A program made the position numbers and the translations under genes. Shown here piece after piece: positions 37,820-52,644 of a DNA stretch of 63,933 nucleotides (position 1 is its first letter; every line of letters starts with the position of its first letter). The notes under the pieces are model-generated. The model saw only the letters and a list, made by a program, of their open reading frames with translations. It made no database searches and was not told the DNA's origin. The stretch is from Eubacteriales bacterium (GTDB lineage Bacteria; Bacillota; Clostridia; Lachnospirales; Lachnospiraceae): the NCBI GenBank assembly GCA_030524175.1, contig JAUNHC010000031.1:1-63933 (forward strand), given 5' to 3'.

Positions 37820-39136
37820 ATGAAGAAAAGATTTTTAGCAGTGGCCTGTTCAGCGGCAATGGTGGCTTCCATGACAGCAGGTCTGGCAACAAATGTTTCT
37901 GCTGCAACAGACGAATTTGCAGGAGAAGAATTAAGCATTCTTGTATCCGCAGGGTGGATGGACAACCGTTATGATGAGACAATTGAACGTTTTGAAGATA
38001 CTTATGATGTAACCGTGGATTTACAGACAATTCCTGCAGACCAGTATATGGACCTTCTGCAGTCAAAACTGTCCACTGATTCCTGTGCGGATATTTTCTG
38101 GATTCAGTCAAATCCATTTGCCATTGAATCTGTGATCGTTGACCCGGAAAAATACTGCATCGATTTCACCGGAGCTGAATGGGAAGAGAAAATCCCGGAA
38201 GCACGCCGTGATGCATGTAAATACAATGACAAATTATATGGCCTTCAGTTGTGGCATAACTCTCCGGAATACGTAATGCTTTACAACAAAACCCTGTTCG
38301 AAGAAAACGGCTGGGAAGTACCGGCTAACTATGAAGAACTGAAAGCTCTGTGCGCAGAAATCCTTGAAGCAGGAATCACACCTTGGTTCTTACCTGGAGC
38401 TGACGGATGGCAGCATCAGCTGGCATTCTTCCAGATCGGCGGATGCTATGAGGAAGCACAGCCTGGTTTATATGAAGCACTGAACAACAATACTGCAACC
38501 TTCGCAGACAATGAGAAAATGATCGAAGTTCTGGATCAGTTTAAAGAGTTCTCCGATGCCGGCTACTTCGGAGAAGACTGGATCGGAACAGACAGCACCA
38601 ATATGTCCAATGAATTCGGCGACAGAAACTGTGCAATGGCACTGGCAAACTCCAGCTTTATCAAACAGATCCAGGAAGATACAGGAACAGAGGATGAATT
38701 CGGATTATTCCTTGAGCCTCTTGGAGACAACACTTATTTCCCGGCAAGCCCGGCAGGCTCAACTATGTTCGGTTACAACGGAACAGAGCATCCTGAGCTT
38801 GTAAAAGAGTTCTTTAACTTCGTAACCACAACTGAAAGTTTACAGGAAATCCTGGACAATTCTCCTGCATACACCAACATTCATGTAAATGATGATGCAG
38901 TAGAACAGCATTGGCTGCCTGAGGAAGAAGAATTCATGAACAGCATTCCGGAAGAGAAAATGTCCATCTCTGTTCTTCAGAACGGTACCAAGTATACAAA
39001 TGATTACTGGAACAACTTTGGCCAGGATATGGTAGCTTTCTGCCAGGGTGAAATGGAAGCAAACGATGTCCTGAAAAACATGGACACAAACCGTGCGGAA
39101 GCTGCCAAAACTACAGGAGACGAAGCCTGGAAGTAA
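37820..39136 (+). CDS. Sugar ABC transporter solute-binding protein
   Basis: Extracytoplasmic family-1 solute-binding protein of 438 residues. N-terminal signal peptide KKRFLAVACSAAMVASM with AxA-like end VSAA near residue 29. Family segments include LSILVSAGW, FWIQSNPF, MLYNKTLFEENGWEVPANYEELKAL and PASPAGSTMFGYNG. There is no convincing lipobox: the only Cys, at position 10, lies too early. This is unusual for a Gram-positive binding protein, so it may be secreted, or anchored through its uncleaved N-terminus. AGGAGG precedes the ATG. First gene of the importer operon with two permeases and a GH95. Confidence 0.9.
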   Translation: MKKRFLAVACSAAMVASMTAGLATNVSAATDEFAGEELSILVSAGWMDNRYDETIERFEDTYDVTVDLQTIPADQYMDLLQSKLSTDSCADIFWIQSNPFAIESVIVDPEKYCIDFTGAEWEEKIPEARRDACKYNDKLYGLQLWHNSPEYVMLYNKTLFEENGWEVPANYEELKALCAEILEAGITPWFLPGADGWQHQLAFFQIGGCYEEAQPGLYEALNNNTATFADNEKMIEVLDQFKEFSDAGYFGEDWIGTDSTNMSNEFGDRNCAMALANSSFIKQIQEDTGTEDEFGLFLEPLGDNTYFPASPAGSTMFGYNGTEHPELVKEFFNFVTTTESLQEILDNSPAYTNIHVNDDAVEQHWLPEEEEFMNSIPEEKMSISVLQNGTKYTNDYWNNFGQDMVAFCQGEMEANDVLKNMDTNRAEAAKTTGDEAWK

Positions 39137-39305
39137 TCTGTTCCCGTTACTCTGAATGTAAAGTGAAAAGGTAAAATGACTGTGCGGAGGAGCTTTCCTT
39201 CGCACTGTTCATTCAAAGGTATGCAGGATCAGCCTTTTGTCGCCCGGGAAGGGGCGGGCACCAGACTGCTGCAGTTACCGTCATCAAAGAAAAGGAGGTG
39301 CTCCT

Positions 39306-40187
39306 GTGAATAAAAAGAAGATTTATCCACAGTGGTTTCTGATCGTACCCTTGGTACTATATATTGTGTTTTTCCTTCTTCCCAGTATTATGGGTGTTGG
39401 ATATTCCTTTACAGACTGGAACTCAAGAAGTGTACTCAACGGGACACATTTTGTAGGTCTTCAGAATTACATAGAAATATTCACATCAGATAAAGATTAT
39501 CTGTCAGGTATCGGACATACCCTTATGTTTACGGTGGTATCCAATATTGTCAAATTAATTCCTGCGTTATTGATCGCCATTATGCTCCAGGAGGGGCTGA
39601 GGGGAAAAGGATTTTACCGCACCATGCTGTATCTTCCTTCTATTCTTCCCTTTGTGATCATCGGTCTTATTTTCAAATCAATCCTTAATTATAATAACGG
39701 ACTTCTCAATGTATTGCTGGAAGCCTTTCACTTAGGATTTTTGAAACAAAAATGGCTTTCTGATTTAGGTATGGTATGGAAATCTATTTTCGGTGTGGAT
39801 GCATGGAGAGGAATCGGTTATGTCATGACCATATTCCTGGCAGGTTTGAATACCATTCCCAAATCTTACTACGAGGCAGCTCAGATCGACGGCGCCAATT
39901 TCTGGCACAGACTGCGCTATGTCACACTCCCCATGATGACTGGCTCCATCATGATCAACCTGGTATTCGGTATCACTTACGGTCTGAAGGTATTTGATAT
40001 TATTTACGTATTGACAAACGGCGGCCCGGGACATGCCACAGAGGTTCTGACCACTTATGCGTTCCAGCTTTATTCAAGAGGCCAGTACGGAATGTCCACG
40101 GCGCTGAATACTGTACTTTTGATCATCACAGCTTTTGTAGGTGTATTTATTGTTAGAACTTTAGGAAAACAGGAGGTGCAGCAATGA
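39306..40187 (+). CDS. Sugar ABC transporter permease (MalF-like)
   Basis: Inner-membrane permease of 293 residues with six predicted helices, from the GTG at 39306 after AAAGGAGGTG. The ATPase-contact EAA loop reads YYEAAQIDGANFWHRLRYVTLPMM. It pairs with the next permease; the stop overlaps that start (ATGA). As in many Firmicute carbohydrate importers, no ATPase is encoded here, so a shared MsmK/UgpC-type ATPase elsewhere is expected. Confidence 0.92.
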   Translation: MNKKKIYPQWFLIVPLVLYIVFFLLPSIMGVGYSFTDWNSRSVLNGTHFVGLQNYIEIFTSDKDYLSGIGHTLMFTVVSNIVKLIPALLIAIMLQEGLRGKGFYRTMLYLPSILPFVIIGLIFKSILNYNNGLLNVLLEAFHLGFLKQKWLSDLGMVWKSIFGVDAWRGIGYVMTIFLAGLNTIPKSYYEAAQIDGANFWHRLRYVTLPMMTGSIMINLVFGITYGLKVFDIIYVLTNGGPGHATEVLTTYAFQLYSRGQYGMSTALNTVLLIITAFVGVFIVRTLGKQEVQQ

Positions 40188-41005
40188 CGAAAAAAAGAGT
40201 CCAGTCGGTCATCAAGCATTTGGTGTGTATCCTTCTGTGCATGACAGTTATCCTTCCTTTTTACATGGTTGTGATCAACTCCTTTAAATCAAAGGCAGAG
40301 GCGGCGAGAATGAGCCTTTCCCTGCCCACAGAATGGCTTTTCAACAACTATACAGAGGTAATCGACAAAGGAAACCTGGTCCAGGGATTTATGAACAGTT
40401 TGCTCTATGCTTTAGTAGCGACAACTCTGGGTGTGGTCCTCTGCTCCATGGCAGCCTTTGTTATGTGCCGTAAACGGACAAAATTAAATGTATTCCTCTA
40501 CTACTTTGTCCTTTGTGGTCTGTTTTTCCCGGTAAACTATGTTACTTTGGTACGGGTTCTCACCACCCTGCATTTAAATGATACCCGTCCCGGAATTGTT
40601 CTGGTGTTTACCAGTGCCATGATTCCCTTCTGCGTGTTTACCATCCGGAACTTTGTCACTTCGGTTCCGGTAGAACTTGATGAGGCAGCAGTTATTGACG
40701 GGGCAGGACCAGTGAGTTTGTTCTTTAAGATCATCATGCCTCTTTTGAAACCCACAATGGTTACTTGCTTTATCCTCCAGTTTATGGGCGTGTGGAGTGA
40801 TTTCCTCACACCATTATATTTGTCCAGCAAGAGCAAGCTCTTCCCTATGACAATGGCAGTTTACCAGTTCTTTGGGAAGAATAAGAATTATTGGAACTAT
40901 ATTTTCGCAGATATCGTACTGACCTGTATTCCTGTTATTATCGTGTATATGATCGGGCAGAAATATATTGTAGGCGGTATGACCTCAGGAGCAGTTAAAG
41001 AATGA
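40184..41005 (+). CDS. Sugar ABC transporter permease (MalG-like)
   Basis: Second permease, 273 residues, six helices. The EAA loop is DEAAVIDGAGPVSLFFKIIMPLLKP. Overlaps both the preceding permease and the GH95 gene by four bases, so uptake and hydrolysis are tightly coupled in expression. The substrate is predicted to be a fucose- or galactose-containing oligosaccharide because of the GH95. Confidence 0.93.
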   Translation: MTKKRVQSVIKHLVCILLCMTVILPFYMVVINSFKSKAEAARMSLSLPTEWLFNNYTEVIDKGNLVQGFMNSLLYALVATTLGVVLCSMAAFVMCRKRTKLNVFLYYFVLCGLFFPVNYVTLVRVLTTLHLNDTRPGIVLVFTSAMIPFCVFTIRNFVTSVPVELDEAAVIDGAGPVSLFFKIIMPLLKPTMVTCFILQFMGVWSDFLTPLYLSSKSKLFPMTMAVYQFFGKNKNYWNYIFADIVLTCIPVIIVYMIGQKYIVGGMTSGAVKE

Positions 41006-43284
41006 TGACTAAAATGAAACTCACAGATACCCGGCAGGCATCCCGTTTTGGAGAGGGATACCCTGTGGGAAATGGACAGATGGGGGCCGTGGTTTACGGC
41101 TCCTTTCCTGTAGAGAAGCTGGTGTTGACAGAAAATACCTTCTACAGCGGAAGGAAAAGTGAGGAAAACAACCAGCCTGGTGCTAAGGATGCATTTTACA
41201 GGATGAGGGAATATATCACCCGGGAGAACTATGAGGCGGCTCATAAGGAGGCGGAGAAATTCCATGGGATCCGAAACGATTATGGAACGAATCTCCCGGT
41301 AGGCAATCTGGAAATTACCTTCGAAGATATGGATGAGACTGCTTCCTATGAAAGAAGTCTTGACTTCCAAAAGGGTATTGCAGAAGTTGACATGAAGGTG
41401 GGACATACTTGTATCCATACAGAAACTTTTGCTTCTCATCCCCATCATGTACTTGTATGGCATATGGAGAGCACCGGGCCTGTTGATCTGACGGCAGGCT
41501 TTCGGCCATATCATGAGAACGGGCAGACTGCCCCGGCAGACCAGGGCTTTTTGTATACAGCCAAGGCAATAGAAACGGTTCATTGCGGAAATCCCTGTGG
41601 GGTATCACTATACGGAAGGTGTTTGGCAGATACAGACGGTGTGCTGAGCACAGAGGGCGGCGGACTTAAGATCCAGGGCGCATCCGGTGTGACACTTTAT
41701 CTTATTTGCCGCACGGATTATGAATGGCAGATGTCAGAAAATACTCCTTTGGAGCACAACTTTGGGGAGAGAGCCTGGGAAGAGTTGGAAAACCACACAA
41801 ATGCTCTTCTTAAGAATGATTTTAGGAAAATACGCAGTGACCATGAGCAGGATATTTCCCGCATTATGTCCAGGGTAGACCTTCAGATGGAAGGAAATAA
41901 AGCCTGCGAGGCAGCGGAATTATTCCAATACGGGCGTTATCTGCTCCTGTCCAGCTCCCGGGAAGATTCTCTTCTGCCTGCACACCTCCAGGGTATTTGG
42001 AATGATGATGTGGCGTGCCGGATTGGATGGTCCTGTGATATGCATCTTGATATCAACACACAGATGAACTATTTTCCTTCCGATGTGACAAATATGCCTG
42101 AAACTCTGCCGCCTGTACTACACTGGATGAAGTTGCTTGCACAGGAAGGCAGAAAGACAGCCAGGGAGGCTTATGGCCTGGAGGGCTGGTCGGCTGAGCT
42201 GGTGTCAAATGCCTGGTGTTATACAGCCCCCTACTGGGCAGTACCCCTGTCCCCGTATCCTACAGGAGGAGCATGGCTTCTTTCTCAGCTTTGGGAGCAT
42301 TGTGACTACGCAGGGGATACAGAGCTTTTAAAAAGCGAGATTTATCCCTTGATGAAAGGTGCTGTGGAATTTTTTACAGGCTATGTGTTTGAAGATGAGA
42401 AGAGCGGCCAGATACTAAGCGGTCCTTCTGTTTCGGCAGAGAACAGCTTTGTGAGCCAGGGGAAAACCTATCAGCTGAGCAATGGCTGTACCTATGAGAT
42501 CACTGTCATACGGGAACTGTTTGAGAACTTTCTTAAGGTTTGCCGCACAATTGAAAAAGAAGAGCCCGGGGCAGCTGACAAAAATCTTATAACAAAAGTT
42601 CAGGAAATACTCCCCGGGCTTCCGGGCTTCCGTGTGATGCCGGACGGAACACTGGCTGAATGGACACATGATTTTCCTTCATCAGATCCCCAGCACCGCC
42701 ATACCAGCCATCTAATGGGACTGTTTCCCTTTGCCCAGATCACCCCTGACAAAACCCCTGACCTTGCACAGGCGGCAAGCAAGACCATTGAAGCAAAGCT
42801 TAATCCCTATGAACAATGGGAGGACACCGGCTGGGCCCGTTCTCTTCTCCTTCTCTATGAAGCACGCCTTCACAATGGGGAAAAGGCCTGGTTCCATGTA
42901 AAGAGCATGCTGGATCAGCTCAGGGAGCCTAACGGTATGATCTATCATCCGCCAACGAGAGGAACTGTATTTGACGATGATTTCGGACATGTATATGAGC
43001 TTGACGGAAATACAGGCTTTACATCCGGGATTGCCGAGATGCTGCTTCAGAGTCATGATCAGATTATCCGCCTTCTGCCGGCAGTTCCAAAAGAGTGGAG
43101 AGAGGGACATGTAAAAGGTCTTAAAGCAAGGGGCGGAGTCACTGTGGAAATTGTGTGGCGTGATGGCAGGGTTGTTGAATATAGGCTTATTTCCCAAAAG
43201 GACCAGAAGTGCAGAGTGATGTATAATAACAAGGTACATGAGGCTGATTTAATAAAAGATAAGATGTATATCTGGAAAGAATAA
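41002..43284 (+). CDS. Glycoside hydrolase family 95 (alpha-L-fucosidase-like)
   Basis: Cytosolic glycosidase of 760 residues with no signal peptide. GYPVGNGQMGAVVYG at the N-terminus, then the (alpha/alpha)6 region with LLPAHLQGIWNDD and LDINTQMNYFPSDVTNMPE, and HRHTSHLMGLFPF, are hallmarks of GH95. Known members release alpha-1,2-linked L-fucose, or L-galactose. Intracellular location together with the ABC importer suggests degradation of imported fucosylated oligosaccharides from mucin or milk. Activity on alpha-L-galactosides is an alternative. Confidence 0.92.
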   Translation: MMTKMKLTDTRQASRFGEGYPVGNGQMGAVVYGSFPVEKLVLTENTFYSGRKSEENNQPGAKDAFYRMREYITRENYEAAHKEAEKFHGIRNDYGTNLPVGNLEITFEDMDETASYERSLDFQKGIAEVDMKVGHTCIHTETFASHPHHVLVWHMESTGPVDLTAGFRPYHENGQTAPADQGFLYTAKAIETVHCGNPCGVSLYGRCLADTDGVLSTEGGGLKIQGASGVTLYLICRTDYEWQMSENTPLEHNFGERAWEELENHTNALLKNDFRKIRSDHEQDISRIMSRVDLQMEGNKACEAAELFQYGRYLLLSSSREDSLLPAHLQGIWNDDVACRIGWSCDMHLDINTQMNYFPSDVTNMPETLPPVLHWMKLLAQEGRKTAREAYGLEGWSAELVSNAWCYTAPYWAVPLSPYPTGGAWLLSQLWEHCDYAGDTELLKSEIYPLMKGAVEFFTGYVFEDEKSGQILSGPSVSAENSFVSQGKTYQLSNGCTYEITVIRELFENFLKVCRTIEKEEPGAADKNLITKVQEILPGLPGFRVMPDGTLAEWTHDFPSSDPQHRHTSHLMGLFPFAQITPDKTPDLAQAASKTIEAKLNPYEQWEDTGWARSLLLLYEARLHNGEKAWFHVKSMLDQLREPNGMIYHPPTRGTVFDDDFGHVYELDGNTGFTSGIAEMLLQSHDQIIRLLPAVPKEWREGHVKGLKARGGVTVEIVWRDGRVVEYRLISQKDQKCRVMYNNKVHEADLIKDKMYIWKE

Positions 43285-45080: not shown

Positions 45081-46109
45081 ATGCAGGTAACGTTGCAGCA
45101 GATTGCTGACGCAGCAGGGGTGTCCAGAGGGACAGTGGACCGTGCGCTGAAAAACAGAGGAAGAGTCAAGCCTGAGGTCGCTGAGAGGATAAAAAAGATA
45201 GCCCAGGAGATGGGATATCAGCCAAGTCTTGCAGGCCGTGCCCTTGCCATGGCCAGGCGGAATGTAAAAATAGGAGTGATTCTGCAGTCTGCACAGACGC
45301 CGTTCATGGAGCAGGTGTATGAAGGGATACTGGCCGGTAAGCAGGAAGTGGAAAGCTTAGGGGGCAATGTGGAAATTTATCGGATCAACGGCGTGGACGC
45401 AGGAAAAGTCATGGAGATCATGGAGGAATTAAAGGACAACGGCGTTTCCGGTATTGCATTATCTCCTTCAGAGGATACCATGCTTAAGAAGATGATCAAT
45501 ACCTTTGCCGGGGATCTTGGAATCCCTGTTGTCACTTTTAACTCAGATGTGGAAGACACGAAACGGCTCTGCTTTGTGGGGCAGGATACATTTCAGAGCG
45601 GCCGCGCTGCAGCTGGTCTGATGGGAGAGATAACCGGGGGTACGGGAGAAGTGGCAGTGATATCGGGACATGTGTCCAATCCGGCCTTAAATAACAGGAA
45701 CAAGGGGTTTTGTGCGGAAATCAGGGAATCCTATCCGGGCATTACACTTGTGAAAACCCGCTATTCCTATGACGATGACTGGGTGGCTGCGAAAATTGTG
45801 GAAGAACTTCTCCTGGAGCATCCGGTATTAAAGGGCATTTATATCACCGGCTCCACCGTCAAAGGAATATGTGAGATGCTTCACAATCTGGGCAGGGAAA
45901 ATGACATAAAAGTTATCGGAAATGATTTTCTGGAAGAAAATAAAGGCTGGGTCAAGGATGGGGTGCTGAATTTTCTTATAGGACAGGATTCCTATGTGCA
46001 GGGATATGAACCTGTGATGATACTGTTCCGTCTCCTGCTGGAGGATGAACAGCCGGACACGCCTTATAAATATACAGAAATCGTGATAAAGAACAAATAT
46101 AATCTATAA
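45081..46109 (+). CDS. LacI-family regulator, probable inositol-operon repressor
   Basis: Repressor of 342 residues. The LacI helix-turn-helix and hinge are clear: TLQQIADAAGVSRGTVDRALKN and YQPSLAGRALA. The remainder is a periplasmic-binding-protein-like sugar domain (IGVILQSAQTPFMEQVYEGI, ISGHVSNPALNNRNKGF) related to ribose/inositol-binding proteins. GGAAAGGAG precedes the ATG. Palindromes of the same kind lie at its own promoter and at the iol operon promoter, so it very likely represses both and responds to an inositol or derived ligand. This contrasts with the DeoR-type IolR of Bacillus. Confidence 0.88.
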   Translation: MQVTLQQIADAAGVSRGTVDRALKNRGRVKPEVAERIKKIAQEMGYQPSLAGRALAMARRNVKIGVILQSAQTPFMEQVYEGILAGKQEVESLGGNVEIYRINGVDAGKVMEIMEELKDNGVSGIALSPSEDTMLKKMINTFAGDLGIPVVTFNSDVEDTKRLCFVGQDTFQSGRAAAGLMGEITGGTGEVAVISGHVSNPALNNRNKGFCAEIRESYPGITLVKTRYSYDDDWVAAKIVEELLLEHPVLKGIYITGSTVKGICEMLHNLGRENDIKVIGNDFLEENKGWVKDGVLNFLIGQDSYVQGYEPVMILFRLLLEDEQPDTPYKYTEIVIKNKYNL

Positions 46110-46686: not shown

Positions 46687-47691
46687 ATGTTAAGAGTTGG
46701 AGTTATCGGATGCGGCGGAATGGGCCGGGATCACATTAAGAGACTGACAGACAAAATCCAGGGAGCAGAAGTGACAGCAGTGTCTGATGTATTTGAAGAG
46801 AGTGCAAAAAAAGCAGCAGCTATCTGCGGGGCAAAAGTTTACACAGACGGGATCGAATTGATCAATGATCCAGAAGTGGACGCCGTGTTTATCGTGTCTC
46901 CGGGATTTGCCCACATTGAACCGTTACTGGCAGCGATCAAAGCGGGAAAGAGGATTTTCTGTGAAAAGCCATTGTGCACAACTGCTGAGGATTGCCTGAA
47001 AGTAGTAAATGCTGAGGTGGAATCAGGAAGACATTTAATACAGCTTGGCTTTATGAGACGATATGACAAAGGTTATATGCAGGTGAAGGAAGCACTGAAA
47101 TCCGGCGAATACGGAGAGCCGCTTATGATGCACTGTACACACAGAAATCCTGAGGTGGGAACAAATTATACAACACCAATGGCTGTGCACGATACCGCGA
47201 TCCATGAGATCGATGTACTCCACTGGCTGGCAGATGATGAGTATGATTCCGCACAGGTGATCATGCCCCGGGTTACAAAATATTCACACTCCCAGTTAAA
47301 CGACCCGCAGATCATGCTTCTTCGTACGAAAAAAGGTGTATGTATTGACGTTGAAGTATTTGTAAACTGCAAATTCGGTTATGACATTAACTGTGAGGTG
47401 GTCTGTGAAGACGGCGCTATCAAGATGCCGTCGCCAATCTATCCGGCTATCCGCAAAAATGCTGCTGTTGCAACAACAATAGATACAGACTGTTTCGTGA
47501 GATTCCAGGATGCTTATGACAAAGAAGTACAGGATTGGGTAGATGCGGCAGAGCAGGATATTATAAACGGGCCAAACGCATGGGACGGATATCTGGCAGC
47601 AGTGACTGCTGATGCCCTTGTAAAAGCACAGGAGACAGGTGCTGTTGAAAAAATCCAGACAGCAGTAGAAAAACCGGAATTTTATAAATGA
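46687..47691 (+). CDS. iolG: myo-Inositol 2-dehydrogenase
   Basis: NAD-dependent Gfo/Idh/MocA oxidoreductase of 334 residues that oxidises myo-inositol to 2-keto-myo-inositol (scyllo-inosose). Rossmann motif RVGVIGCGGMGRDHIKRL; catalytic EKPLCTTAEDC with Lys; MRRYDKGY; and HDTAIHEIDVLHWLAD with the catalytic Asp/His pair. The overall pattern closely follows Bacillus IolG. AATGGAGG precedes the ATG. First gene of the operon under the palindrome. Confidence 0.92.
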   Translation: MLRVGVIGCGGMGRDHIKRLTDKIQGAEVTAVSDVFEESAKKAAAICGAKVYTDGIELINDPEVDAVFIVSPGFAHIEPLLAAIKAGKRIFCEKPLCTTAEDCLKVVNAEVESGRHLIQLGFMRRYDKGYMQVKEALKSGEYGEPLMMHCTHRNPEVGTNYTTPMAVHDTAIHEIDVLHWLADDEYDSAQVIMPRVTKYSHSQLNDPQIMLLRTKKGVCIDVEVFVNCKFGYDINCEVVCEDGAIKMPSPIYPAIRKNAAVATTIDTDCFVRFQDAYDKEVQDWVDAAEQDIINGPNAWDGYLAAVTADALVKAQETGAVEKIQTAVEKPEFYK

Positions 47692-47795: not shown

Positions 47796-48626
47796 ATGAA
47801 ACTTGGATTTAACGAAGCAACCGCACTGGAGTGCAAGGGACAGTCTTTAATGGCTGATTTGGAAATGTGTGAAAAATACGGTTTTGATTATATTGAAATC
47901 CGTTTTGACTGTGTGAAGGATTATTTAGAGGAACATTCCCTGGAGGAGCTGGCAGACTGGTTTAAGAACCACCATCTCAAACCATGGGCATATAATACCT
48001 TGATTTATTTTAATCAGAGGGATGAAGCAGGAGAAAAGGAAATAGACGAGGAAGTAGACTTTATACTCAAAGTTTCCAAGGCCATCGGCATGAAGATGCT
48101 GATCACAGTGCCAAACTTTGATGTGAAAGATAAAAGTGTGGGAGAGATCAAGGAGGAAGCGGTGAAGCGGCTCCGTTATTTATCCGACAAGGTTGGGGCA
48201 GACATGAAGATCTCCCTGGAATTCTGCGGCGCACCAAACTGCTCTATCAACCAGTTCGGCACAGCCTATGACGTGGTAAAGGCTGTTGACAGGGATAATG
48301 TAGGGGTAACGGTAGATACCTTCCATTTCCACGAAATGTGTTCAAGGCTTCAAGACCTGGAAGCAGCTGACGGAAAGAAAATTTTCGCATATCACCTTAA
48401 TGACTGCGAGGATCTTCCCCTTGGCTCCTGCGGCGATGACAAACGTCTGTGGCCTGGCGAAGGTGTAGTTGACCATGCGGGGATCGCGGCAGCACTTAAG
48501 AAGATTGGATTTGACGGTGTTTGCACTATTGAGGAATTCCGGCCTGAATACTATGAGATGAGCCATGAGGAAAATGTAAAAAAAGCAGCAGAAGTGACTA
48601 AGGCATTTGTTGAAAAATATTTCTGA
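47796..48626 (+). CDS. iolI: 2-keto-myo-inositol isomerase
   Basis: TIM-barrel isomerase of 276 residues that interconverts 2-keto-myo-inositol and 1-keto-D-chiro-inositol. It resembles Bacillus IolI along its length: MKLGFNEATALE, MCEKYGFDYIEIR, NRDEAG-like NQRDEAGEKEI, GVTVDTFHFHEM, YHLNDCEDLPLG and IEEFRPEYYEM. Divalent-metal ligands (Glu in LEFCG, Asp/His in DTFHFH, Glu in IEEFRP) are present. AATATGGAGG precedes the ATG. Confidence 0.93.
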   Translation: MKLGFNEATALECKGQSLMADLEMCEKYGFDYIEIRFDCVKDYLEEHSLEELADWFKNHHLKPWAYNTLIYFNQRDEAGEKEIDEEVDFILKVSKAIGMKMLITVPNFDVKDKSVGEIKEEAVKRLRYLSDKVGADMKISLEFCGAPNCSINQFGTAYDVVKAVDRDNVGVTVDTFHFHEMCSRLQDLEAADGKKIFAYHLNDCEDLPLGSCGDDKRLWPGEGVVDHAGIAAALKKIGFDGVCTIEEFRPEYYEMSHEENVKKAAEVTKAFVEKYF

Positions 48627-48776: not shown

Positions 48777-50810
48777 ATGAATGAATTTATCAAAGTCCCG
48801 GTGTCGGAAAAGCTGGCCTATTGTTTCGGCGACCCGGCATTGACTTTGATGTATACCATGACCACCACACTGCTGATCTATTTCTATACAAATGTAGTAG
48901 GGATTTCAGCGGGCGCTGTAGGTATGATCATGCTGCTCTCACGGGTGTTCGACGGTTTTTCCGACGTATTGATGGGCACTATCATAGACCGTACCCACTC
49001 TAAATACGGAAAGGCCAGAATCTGGATACTCCGCCTGGCCATCCCTTATGCCCTGGCTGCTGTCCTTCTGTTTACCATGCCCCCTATGGGCAATACAGGA
49101 AAGGTTATCTATGCGTTTGTCACGTACAACATAATGAATACAGTGGTATATACAGCCATCAGCCAGCCCTTCCACGCTCTTGGCTCTCTTATGAGCCGTG
49201 ACAGGAGGGAGCGGGATATTATCTGTAATATCCGTATGGTACTTTCTATCACTGCCAGTATGGTGATCACGGCATTCACCCTGCCGCTGATCAATCAGGT
49301 GGCAAAATTGATCGATAACCAGCAGGCAGCTTGGATCATAGTGACTGCAGCATATGCGCTGGTTTCGGTATTTGTTTTACTGAATACTTATTGTACCTGT
49401 ACGGAACGTGTTTCAGCTGTCAAGCAGACAAAAGAGGAAAAGTCAGATGTACCTTTCCTGAAAGCGTTTAAAGTTACAGTGACGAACCGATATTTTCTTA
49501 TTGCACTGGGACTGATGATATTTTACACGGCATATCAGATCATTATCGGGACAGACCTTACATATTACTGCCAGTATGTTCTTAATGACGTTGACTTAGT
49601 GATGCCGCTGTCAGCAGCAGAAAAAATAGCAACTATCATCGGAATTGCCATGCTTCCCCGTATATTGCCAAAATACGGCAAGCGCCGGCTCATTTGTGCA
49701 GGATGTATACTCGGCATAGCGGGACAGCTGCTTTTCCTTCTGAATATTACCAGTGTTCCTCTTGGTGTTGTGACCTGTATCATGAGAGGGATCGGGATCG
49801 CACCTTTCTATGGAGTCCAGTATTCCCTTCCAAGTGATGCGATAGAATACGGTCACTGGAAGAACGGAGTCCGCGTTGAAGGTCTCATGTTCTCTTCCAT
49901 GAGTATGGGACAGAAAGCAGGCTCGGGCTTTACCTCTGCGATCATGGGAGCAATACTTTCCATGGCAGCATTTGACGGGCTGAAAGCCACAGCAGCAGAG
50001 CAGACAGCATCTGCTATTGCAGCCATCAAGAATTTCTATCTTTACGTTCCCATTGCACTGTGGGCAGTGATGTTTATCATAGCAGCCTGTTATAAGCTTG
50101 ACAAGATGTATGACAGCATGATGAGAGAGCTGATCTCAAGAGAAGGAAAGGAACACCCGGAGGAGATTCCGGTGCAGCCTTATTCAGGGAACCGGATCAA
50201 CATTGCTGTGGGCCGCGTTTATGGAAGCAGCGGCAGGATCATAGCAGAACGGCTTGCAGAGAAGCTGGACTGCCGCGTCTATGACAGACAGATCATCTGC
50301 CTTCTGGCGGAAAAACTGGGGATGGAAAATGCAGACCTGGAAGAAGTACAGAAATATCTGGATAACTATAATTATGGAGGCCCTGAGCCGGCCTTTTCCC
50401 CCTATGCATACCCCAAGGCAGGAGTTGCAGGAGATTTAAGTCCCATTCAGACCTTTGAAACACAGTGCCGGATCATTCTGGGGCTTGCCCAAAATGCACC
50501 GGGAGTTTTCCTGGGAAGATGTGCAAATTTCGTCTTGAATGAGCAGAAACATACGTATTCTTTCTTCCTTTATGCAGATGACGCATACCGGGAAAAAGAA
50601 GGAAAAGAGTATTACGGACAGACGCTTTCCCAGCTAAACCAGAAGGATGCTCTCAGAAACGAATATTACCAGAGATTTACCGGAATGAGACGGGATGACC
50701 CTGCCAATTATGATATGGTCGTCAACGTATCGAAGACAGGAGTAGACGGAGCAGTGTCTATGATTTTAGATTATGTATATAAGAAAGAGGAGGAACAGCA
50801 TGCTGAATAA
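48777..50810 (+). CDS. GPH-family sugar/inositol symporter fused to a cytidylate-kinase-like domain
   Basis: One uninterrupted frame of 677 residues from the ATG at 48777 (AAGGGAAAAG site); an in-frame ATG at 48723 is possible. Residues ~1-465 form a twelve-helix glycoside-pentoside-hexuronide:cation symporter ([60 protein letters not shown]). Residues ~475-670 match the cytidylate-kinase-like family (Cytidylate_kin2): [51 protein letters not shown]. The P-loop is noncanonical, GRVYGSSGR. The soluble domain should be cytoplasmic. Within the iol operon, inositol uptake is likely. Such a fusion could phosphorylate the imported substrate or regulate transport. Confidence 0.88.
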
Positions 50811-51696
50811 AAATAAAGTAAGGCTGGGGATAGCACCTATTGCCTGGACAAACGATGATATGCCGGATTTGGGAAAAGAGAATACCTTTGAGCAATGTGT
50901 GAGTGAAATGGCACTTGCAGGTTTTACCGGCTCAGAAGTGGGCGGAAAATACCCCGCCGATACAGAGATTTTGAAAAAAGCATTGGATATGCGGGGGATT
51001 GAGATATGTAACCAGTGGTTTTCCTCTTTTCTGATTTCCCGTCCTTTTGAAGAAACAGAGCGTGAATTTGTGGCGGCTCTGGATTTTCTGAAAACAATGG
51101 GAGCCAAGGTGATAGGTGTCTCTGAACAGAGCTACAGTATTCAAGGAAAGATGGAGCAGCCTGTATGGGAAGGCAAGTATGTGATGGATGAGGATGAATG
51201 GAGGCTTCTTGCGGAGGGCCTTAACAAGCTGGGAAAGATCGCCAGAGAAAAGGGCATGACACTCACCTTCCATCACCATATGGGAACTGTTGTACAGACA
51301 GAGGAAGAGATAGATAAATTTATGGAAATGGTGGACCCGGATCTGGTATTCCTGCTTTTTGACAGCGGTCACCTCTCATTTGCAGGGATCGATCCGGAGA
51401 ATGTACTGAAGAAATATGTGGATCGTGTGAAGCATGTACATCTCAAAGATATCCGTAAGGATATGGTGGAAAAATCAAAGAATGAGGGCTGGAGCTTCTT
51501 AAAGGGAGTGAGAGAAGGGGTATTCACCGTGCCAGGAGACGGGGATGTGGATTTTGCCCCTATATTCAGGATCCTTGAAGAAGCAGGATATGAAGGCTGG
51601 GTGGTAGTGGAAGCAGAACAGGATCCTGCAAGAGCTAATCCGCTGGAATATGCCATAAAAGCAAGAAAATATATTGCTGAAAAAACAGGCTTATAA
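50800..51696 (+). CDS. iolE: Inosose dehydratase
   Basis: TIM-barrel lyase of 298 residues that dehydrates 2-keto-myo-inositol to the cyclic diketone. [58 protein letters not shown] and HVHLKDIR are typical of IolE, including metal-binding Glu, Asp and His. ATG at 50800 follows GAGGAGG and overlaps the transporter gene by 11 bases. Confidence 0.93.
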
Positions 51697-51720: not shown

Positions 51721-52644
51721 ATGAAAATAGCATTTGATGTGGATGTTCTTGCAAAACAGATGGACATTAACCGTATGGTACATCAGGTGGCAGACTGGGG
51801 CTACAAATATATCGAACAGTCACCCCATCCAAGGATCAATCCCTTTTATAAACATCCGCTTTTTTCCAGGGAATGCCAGCAGGAATACAGACAGGCTCTG
51901 AGCGAAACAGGAGTAGAGATATCTTCTTTCATCGTGGTATACCGGTGGTCAGGGCCAACAGAGGAGCAGAGACGGTTCGCAGTTGCAAACTGGAAAAGAA
52001 TGATAGAGATTGCAGTTGATATGGGCGTGCCGGTGATCAACACAGAGCTTTCCGGTGATCCTAATCAGCAGGAAATCTGCAATGGTATGTGGTACCGTTC
52101 CATGGAAGAGCTGCTTCCTATAATAGAAAGAGAAGGACTTCGCGTTGAAATCCAGTCCCATCCCTATGATTTCTGTGAGTTGAATAATGAAACCTGTGAC
52201 ATGGTGAAATCCTTCCGCTCCAGGAATCTGGGCTATGTGTATTCAGCCCCTCATGGATTCTTCTATGATGAAGGGAAAGGAGATGTGCGGTCTATGCTGA
52301 AATATGCAGGAGATGAGCTGACTCATGTACTCTTTGCAGATACCTTTAACCAGACACTGGACTGCAGATATATCGCCAATCCTCCTTGGCTGAATCAGAG
52401 AGGAAGATCAGACGTGACCATTCACCAGCATCTGGCTATGGGGGAAGGAGACGTGGACTTCGATGGAATCTTCCAGACTTTGCGGGAGATGGATTTTGCC
52501 CGCAAGCAGTTAAAACCTGACGCTCCAAAAACAGGAGGAGACAATATTGCCTGTGTATCCATGTTTGGATTTCCGGAAAAAATGGACAGACAGGCACCGG
52601 AAGCCAGAGAACGTATCCAGAGAGAATTAGTGGATGCAAGATAA
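51721..52644 (+). CDS. iolH: IolH-like sugar isomerase/epimerase
   Basis: TIM-barrel protein of 307 residues. MKIAFDVDVLAKQMDINRMV, WGYKYIEQSPHPRINPFYKH and LAMGEGDVDFDGIFQTL resemble Bacillus IolH, whose reaction is not firmly known. Metal-binding Glu/Asp/His residues occur in EIQSHPYDF and LFADTFNQ. AAAGGAGG precedes the ATG. Last gene of the iol operon; a terminator lies at 52717. Confidence 0.8.
   Translation: MKIAFDVDVLAKQMDINRMVHQVADWGYKYIEQSPHPRINPFYKHPLFSRECQQEYRQALSETGVEISSFIVVYRWSGPTEEQRRFAVANWKRMIEIAVDMGVPVINTELSGDPNQQEICNGMWYRSMEELLPIIEREGLRVEIQSHPYDFCELNNETCDMVKSFRSRNLGYVYSAPHGFFYDEGKGDVRSMLKYAGDELTHVLFADTFNQTLDCRYIANPPWLNQRGRSDVTIHQHLAMGEGDVDFDGIFQTLREMDFARKQLKPDAPKTGGDNIACVSMFGFPEKMDRQAPEARERIQRELVDAR

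Follow-up and report, generated by a model that had tools for sequence, protein, structure and literature searches.

Why should a cation symporter encoded among inositol genes carry, in the same polypeptide, a domain of a cytidylate-kinase-like family, and what might such a domain do for the transporter? The question is raised by one gene of a Lachnospiraceae genome, located in a 63,933-nucleotide stretch of DNA that was analyzed as a whole and is referred to here as the window. The use of inositol by gut bacteria is of interest for host health (PMC8355322, excerpts). A preliminary description of the locus had proposed that the fused domain either phosphorylates the imported polyol, outside the phosphotransferase system (PTS), or gates transport by nucleotide. 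This interpretation is partly supported by the present analysis, and nucleotide gating would come close to the reading that we favor from sequence comparisons.

Results

The gene is a single uninterrupted frame, from ATG to stop, that encodes both domains (Table 1). In Pfam, MFS_2 (PF13347) is found at residues 15-443 with 277 bits against a cut-off of 27, and Cytidylate_kin2 (PF13189, hereafter KIN for the domain or the gene encoding it) at residues 475-653 with 107.8 bits against a cut-off of 28, covering positions 1-176 of the 176 in the profile; a search of the genome itself for the PF13189 domain returned 50199-50735 with 111.6 bits. The NCBIfam model of GPH symporters, TIGR00792, matches residues 12-455 (314.5 against a cut-off of 231.35), so that the junction of a cation symporter with a Cytidylate_kin2-type domain, as first described, is confirmed on both sides. 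MFS families and PF13189 were the only Pfam matches, with no PTS IIA domain, and the IolC model TIGR04382 was not among the NCBIfam matches of the fused protein.

Table 1. Location of the features discussed in the text (window positions unless a locus is given).
Feature	Location	Strand	Remarks
Fused symporter-kinase-like gene	48777..50810	+	677 aa, stop 50808-50810
GPH:cation symporter domain, residues 1-460	48777..50156	+	PF13347, TIGR00792, MelB alignment
Interdomain linker, residues 461-473	50157..50195	+	alignment A1; length and sequence vary among orthologues
Cytidylate_kin2 (PF13189) domain, residues 474-677	50196..50807	+	PF13189 match
P-loop-like motif GRVYGSSGR, residues 479-487	50211..50237	+	position and conservation
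LacI-family regulator, periplasmic-binding-protein-like sensor	45081..46109	+	PF00356, PF13407
IolG-type inositol dehydrogenase	46687..47691	+	NF052679 465 bits, below 540; TIGR04380 200 bits, below 355
Xylose-isomerase-like TIM-barrel enzyme	47796..48626	+	PF01261 119 bits; conserved neighbor
IolE, inosose dehydratase	50800..51696	+	TIGR04379 425 bits, cut-off 290
Second xylose-isomerase-like TIM-barrel enzyme	51721..52644	+	PF01261 128 bits; conserved neighbor
MATE-PF13189 fusions	L077:44-2026, L147:3786-5780, L149:4803-6815, L151:3740-5779, L152:77-2134		
DUF6198-PF13189 fusions	L079:6468-7745, L130:1453-2736, L257:3287-4639, L258:2980-4287		

MelB, a homologous GPH carrier, aligns with residues 7-450 only and thus has no counterpart of the PF13189 domain. 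Its D55 and D59, which we take to be the cation-site aspartates, correspond to D59 and D63 of the fused carrier, invariant in 26 rows of alignment A1, but its D19 and D124, presumably sugar-site positions, correspond to T23 and S129. The carrier is predicted to import inositol or one of its stereoisomers together with a cation. The preliminary description gave the carrier twelve helices; a crude hydropathy scan showed 7 to 10 peaks, all of them before residue 465. In the orthologues of alignment A1 both domains are conserved and the linker is variable. Compared with the nearest orthologue, dN/dS (NG86) is 0.028 for the carrier and 0.066 for the KIN part; values of 0.023-0.050 for the carrier (7 of 10 pairs computable) and of 0.066-0.121 for the KIN part (6 of 10 computable) are rough due to saturated dS, as are those of the remaining computable KIN pairs (0.081-0.121, dS >1.6). 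An internal start for a free KIN domain, suggested by a GGAGG and an in-frame GTG at codon 466 (window 50157-50180), is regarded as incidental: the arrangement is present in 2/22 fused sequences, those of the window and L087, and internal start-like codons with a match of at least five bases amount to 57/1163.

The fused gene is one of six genes on the same strand, which encode, in this order, a LacI regulator, an IolG-type enzyme, a TIM-barrel protein, the fusion, IolE and a second TIM-barrel protein. The last 11 bp of the fused gene are shared with the start of iolE. The gene for the LacI-type regulator ends 577 bp before iolG, and many orthologous loci have a homologue of it close to the fusion. 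IolG of the window is closest to the bifunctional myo/D-chiro-inositol class without reaching the curated cut-offs. In Anaerostipes rhamnosivorans, the IolG protein AR1Y2_0342 is linked to chiro-inositol use and AR1Y2_0345 is an induced IolE (PMC8355322, excerpts). As initially pointed out, the operon encodes no IolC kinase; iolC is, however, present elsewhere in the genome (G000:C8; 380 bits, cut-off 300), in a main inositol cluster on contig C8 (L174:292-12614) together with iolD, an iolG-like gene and genes for a sodium/solute symporter and a class II aldolase. The window operon may handle a stereoisomer of inositol and supply the main iol pathway encoded on that contig. Among ten further genomes, iolC scored above the cut-off in nine, namely in 6/7 with the fusion and in 3/3 without it, and the lone fusion genome lacking a match is 78% complete. 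Consequently, the idea that the fused domain stands in for an absent iolC was ruled out. Upstream in the window, at 37820-43284, genes apparently for a sugar ABC transporter precede a 760-residue ORF, by its sequence presumably a glycoside hydrolase.

The fusion is rare. Whole-length matches were obtained in 4/299 genomes of the source's family, the window's genome included. When 392 genomes of the order were searched with the KIN part, six carried it with 55-100% identity, within frames of 696-725 residues; ranking next is a stand-alone KIN protein with 34% identity. A sample of 30 genomes from the order listed 29 matches, 25 of them strong, and no long fusion apart from that of the window. 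In named genomes, 28 orthologous loci were compared, of which 21 are fused, five have a true stop before the KIN domain (L104, L105, L106, L108 and L111) and two are cut by the contig end (L109 and L110). A frameshift or assembly artefact is ruled out, since the same fused frame recurs in 21/28 loci. The fused records include Blautia, Dorea, Faecalicatena and Clostridium, several being MAGs, and the linkage to inositol genes holds across these genera: an iol gene lies within the fetched stretch in 20/21 fused loci, L088 being the exception, and the fused gene occupies the middle or the end of the orthologous operons.

In the carrier tree, from which L068, L069, L071, L072, L073, L074 and L090 were omitted as same-contig copies, the unfused L104 groups with the fused L094 (support 96/91), which indicates one loss of the domain at that point; the six changes counted on this tree are an overcount, as L109 and L110 were scored as unfused despite being cut by the contig end and L108 was omitted. 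In the KIN tree (71 rows), a quick tree without bootstrap, the fused domains, 16 after removal of redundancy, group together in a single clade (100*), close to three stand-alone genes, L075, L175 and L183, in a 19-row clade (99*). Two of these three adjoin GPH genes. The L075 gene (L075:16048-16647) lies 1.4 kb beyond an unfused orthologous operon, separated from it by a PTS IIA gene and a regulator-like gene on the opposite strand; in view of these intervening genes, and of only about 38-43% identity in its top matches listed, it is not proposed as the direct source of the domain.

The same two components also occur as separate neighboring genes. In another order, the stand-alone KIN gene of L183 lies 6 bp downstream of a gene for a GPH symporter, and their run also holds an aldolase gene, iolC, iolD and iolE, with iolG on the opposite strand; the KIN gene of L175 precedes another GPH symporter gene by 16 bp. 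A search with the L183 protein in 189 genomes of its order gave matches in 92. The 30 loci returned, among them that of the query, were counted with all ORFs: a GPH gene lies at most 150 bp upstream on the same strand in 23 and at 287 bp in one, and the fetched flank shows none in the remaining six; an iolG-like sequence is found in the 1.5-kb flanks of 16/30. These loci are relatives of a single query that already stood beside a GPH gene, so they attest a conserved gene order rather than independent events. Gene pair and fusion share components and inositol-pathway context and differ in being two genes instead of one and in their carriers: identity to the window carrier is only 38% for the GPH protein of the L183 operon and 27% for the one next to the KIN gene of L175, which places them in other GPH subfamilies.

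The motif GRVYGSSGR, previously called a noncanonical P-loop, is close to the motif usual in the whole PF13189 family, R-x-[YF]-G-S-G-G according to our own reading of 30 stand-alone sequences. In 22 distinct fused domains, R480, G483 and G486 of this motif are kept without exception, position 484 is S in 12 and A in 10, and G485 is replaced by S in 22/22. Also kept in 22/22 are Y502, D503, G580, R581, R605, D624, R627 and Y645. Besides G485S, the substitutions C576G, R608E and W639R are present in all 22, at positions occupied by the usual residue in most of the 30 stand-alone domains (G485 27/30, C576 29/30, R608 26/30, W639 30/30), R608 and W639 being defined by their conservation in stand-alone domains, outside the Pfam definition. 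N584 is found in 22/22 fused domains and in 10/30 stand-alone ones. The stand-alone genes adjacent to GPH genes (n=24) retain the usual residues (G485 24/24, R608 23/24, W639 24/24), hence the changes at 485, 608 and 639 go with the fused form. Given four conserved positions changed in 22/22, catalysis may be lost in the fused domain; nucleotide binding could be lost as well.

GPH symporters are not the only membrane proteins to which the domain is joined. The earlier statement that each of the two families normally lacks the other is right for most members; fusion of PF13189 to a membrane protein has nevertheless taken place more than once. Fusions to MATE proteins were found as seven ORFs (L077, L147-L152), with both domains recognized by Pfam in 4/4 tested (L077, L147, L151, L152), and adjacent MATE and PF13189 genes occur in L153, L156, L157 and L158, with distances from a 4-bp overlap to 21 bp and MatE confirmed by Pfam for L156 and L158. 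A further MATE-PF13189 frame, L078:5351-7327, has a stop inside the kinase-like domain. Fusions to DUF6198 proteins comprise six ORFs (L079, L128-L130, L257 and L258), Pfam identifying both parts in 4/4 tested (L079, L130, L257, L258); in L128 a stop lies inside the matched stretch. Several DUF6198-PF13189 genes are preceded by a short ORF, presumably a MarR regulator, and the L130 fusion comes from a Blautia genome that also carries the GPH fusion. On the KIN tree, the MATE fusions need three changes, two of them forced by starred branches, and the GPH (100*) and DUF6198 (87) fusions each fit a single origin.

Stand-alone KIN genes were also examined for their neighbors. Of 24 strong matches other than the window's, 23 were usable, L191 giving no KIN ORF. 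A transporter-like gene ends at most 60 bp before the KIN gene in 8/23, compared to 7/106 control genes of 150-270 residues drawn from 12 of the other sampled genomes, the window's own not being represented (Fisher p 0.0009), in a test that ignores kinship, four of the eight positives forming one clade and two more being close kin. The transporter-like class follows a hydropathy and motif rule, and Pfam, applied to two of the eight positives, identified a CitMHS/ArsB-like protein (L193) and an ABC protein (L196). In a second set, the 14 stand-alone KIN genes most like the fused domain, no transporter-like neighbor was found within 60 bp, although two of these are preceded by an ABC gene, at distances of 117 and 163 bp; pooling both sets gives 8/37 (p 0.016, relatedness ignored). 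Stand-alone PF13189 genes directly follow ABC ATPase genes in L196, L197, L198, L199, L192 and L083, with gaps of -38 to 20 bp; names such as livF or GlnQ for these neighbors are our assumption.

PF13189 is widespread, with matches at E 1e-12 in 7/14 named control genomes. Longer PF13189 proteins of 310-336 residues with an extra C-terminal part were observed in L177:755-1687, L178:1495-2478, L179:991-2001 and L180:994-1998, the gene that follows in L177, L179 and L180 being presumably one for hypoxanthine phosphoribosyltransferase, and a 566-residue ORF (L154:360-2060) has a weak partial match (36.5 bits) to a PF13189-type profile near its C-terminus. In Fusobacterium nucleatum, an RNA-seq table lists CS401_RS03620, a 'cytidylate kinase-like family protein', with a value of 1.956 and an efflux RND permease, RS3610, two steps away by locus tag, with 1.953 (PMC9848294, excerpts), which may point to an association with transporters outside this phylum.

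Discussion

In order to explain why the domain is attached to an inositol symporter, we hypothesize, with slightly more confidence than doubt, that the PF13189 tail is a nucleotide-responsive partner that regulates the carrier, both binding and regulation being predictions from sequence. The domain would hang from the C-terminus of the carrier by a flexible linker, face the cytoplasm, as expected from the topology of MelB, and dock on the inner face of the carrier, where the bound nucleotide would set the level of transport. It would derive from a free-standing PF13189 protein encoded beside GPH symporters, joined to the inositol carrier in one lineage. The five natural orthologues without the domain indicate that the carrier can do without it, and a domain that is dispensable in some orthologues, variably tethered and probably cytoplasmic fits a regulator. 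Likewise, the recurring companion of PF13189 is a transporter and not one substrate, which favors nucleotide-responsive control.

A precedent for this arrangement is LacS of Streptococcus thermophilus, a member of the GPH family. Like the fusion, LacS consists of a symporter and an extra soluble C-terminal domain, which is dispensable for transport and regulates the carrier from the cytoplasmic side (PMC10703360, excerpts). The likeness is in arrangement only, since the tail of LacS is a PTS IIA domain and its signal the phosphorylation by HPr, whereas here the tail is PF13189 and the signal would be a nucleotide.

Three other explanations were considered. The fused domain could act locally as a protein or nucleotide kinase, either on the carrier itself or to supply nucleoside diphosphates at the membrane, instead of only sensing a nucleotide, as might be suggested by partners that are different transporters and by the family residues, including R608 and W639, kept in the GPH-adjacent stand-alone homologues; the loss of these two residues in every fused domain (22/22) makes this unlikely. 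Stand-alone Cytidylate_kin2 proteins of solved structure, 3hdt and 3fdi, belong to PF13189 over their full length but are free-standing, whereas the window domain is fused to a carrier and has fixed changes at conserved positions; they bear only the names 'putative kinase' and 'uncharacterized protein', and the literature searched assigned neither of them a function. Nor did that literature, consulted in excerpts under the family names, transporters, MATE, inositol operons and 3HDT/3FDI, yield a characterized PF13189 kinase or an account of a PF13189 role or transporter fusion: the family name did not turn up in the text of PMC7806268, and in the excerpts of PMC8756737 and PMC9848294 a PF13189-family gene is mentioned merely in gene tables.

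We consider slightly more doubtful that the domain is a pseudo-enzyme kept to help the carrier assemble, remain stable or reach its place in the membrane, and devoid of any nucleotide role. Family positions fixed to other residues throughout the fused clade would agree with it, as would the fact that at least one lineage has lost the domain; nevertheless, a large share of the P-loop-like core, along with several arginines, is invariant in 22/22, a conservation without obvious purpose in a pure scaffold.

The inositol pathway begins with the oxidation of free inositol by IolG, and MATE and DUF6198 proteins are not expected to import polyols. That the domain is an active kinase phosphorylating the incoming inositol or its product, coupled to transport outside the PTS, is accordingly improbable: the kinase-like family, its residues kept in 22/22 (R480, G486, Y502, D503, G580, R581, R605, D624, R627) and its tie to inositol operons, both fused and as a gene pair, speak for it, but against the preliminary proposal of polyol phosphorylation stand iolC in the window's own genome, in six of the seven other fusion genomes searched and in an operon with the paired genes, this first pathway step, the five orthologous carriers without the domain, the sister domains on MATE and DUF6198 proteins and the replaced family-conserved positions. 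The pathway steps are given in PMC8355322 (excerpts).

Returning to nucleotide-responsive regulation, the inositol fusion, together with the gene pairs and the further carriers fused to this domain, provides a concrete hypothesis for PF13189, a nucleotide-kinase fold that would control membrane transport. The inositol symporter is a good object on which to test it, as the domain is removable and some natural orthologues lack PF13189. Tentatively, and with more reservation than for the inositol carrier itself, we extend the hypothesis to PF13189 proteins as general nucleotide-dependent regulators of transporters in Bacillota, which, as free partners encoded beside transporters or as fused tails, would serve carriers of unrelated structure, namely GPH, MATE, DUF6198 and ABC systems. 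If true, PF13189 regulators would be a counterpart of the control exerted by PII/GlnK or IIA proteins, and the inositol fusion would be its clearest case.
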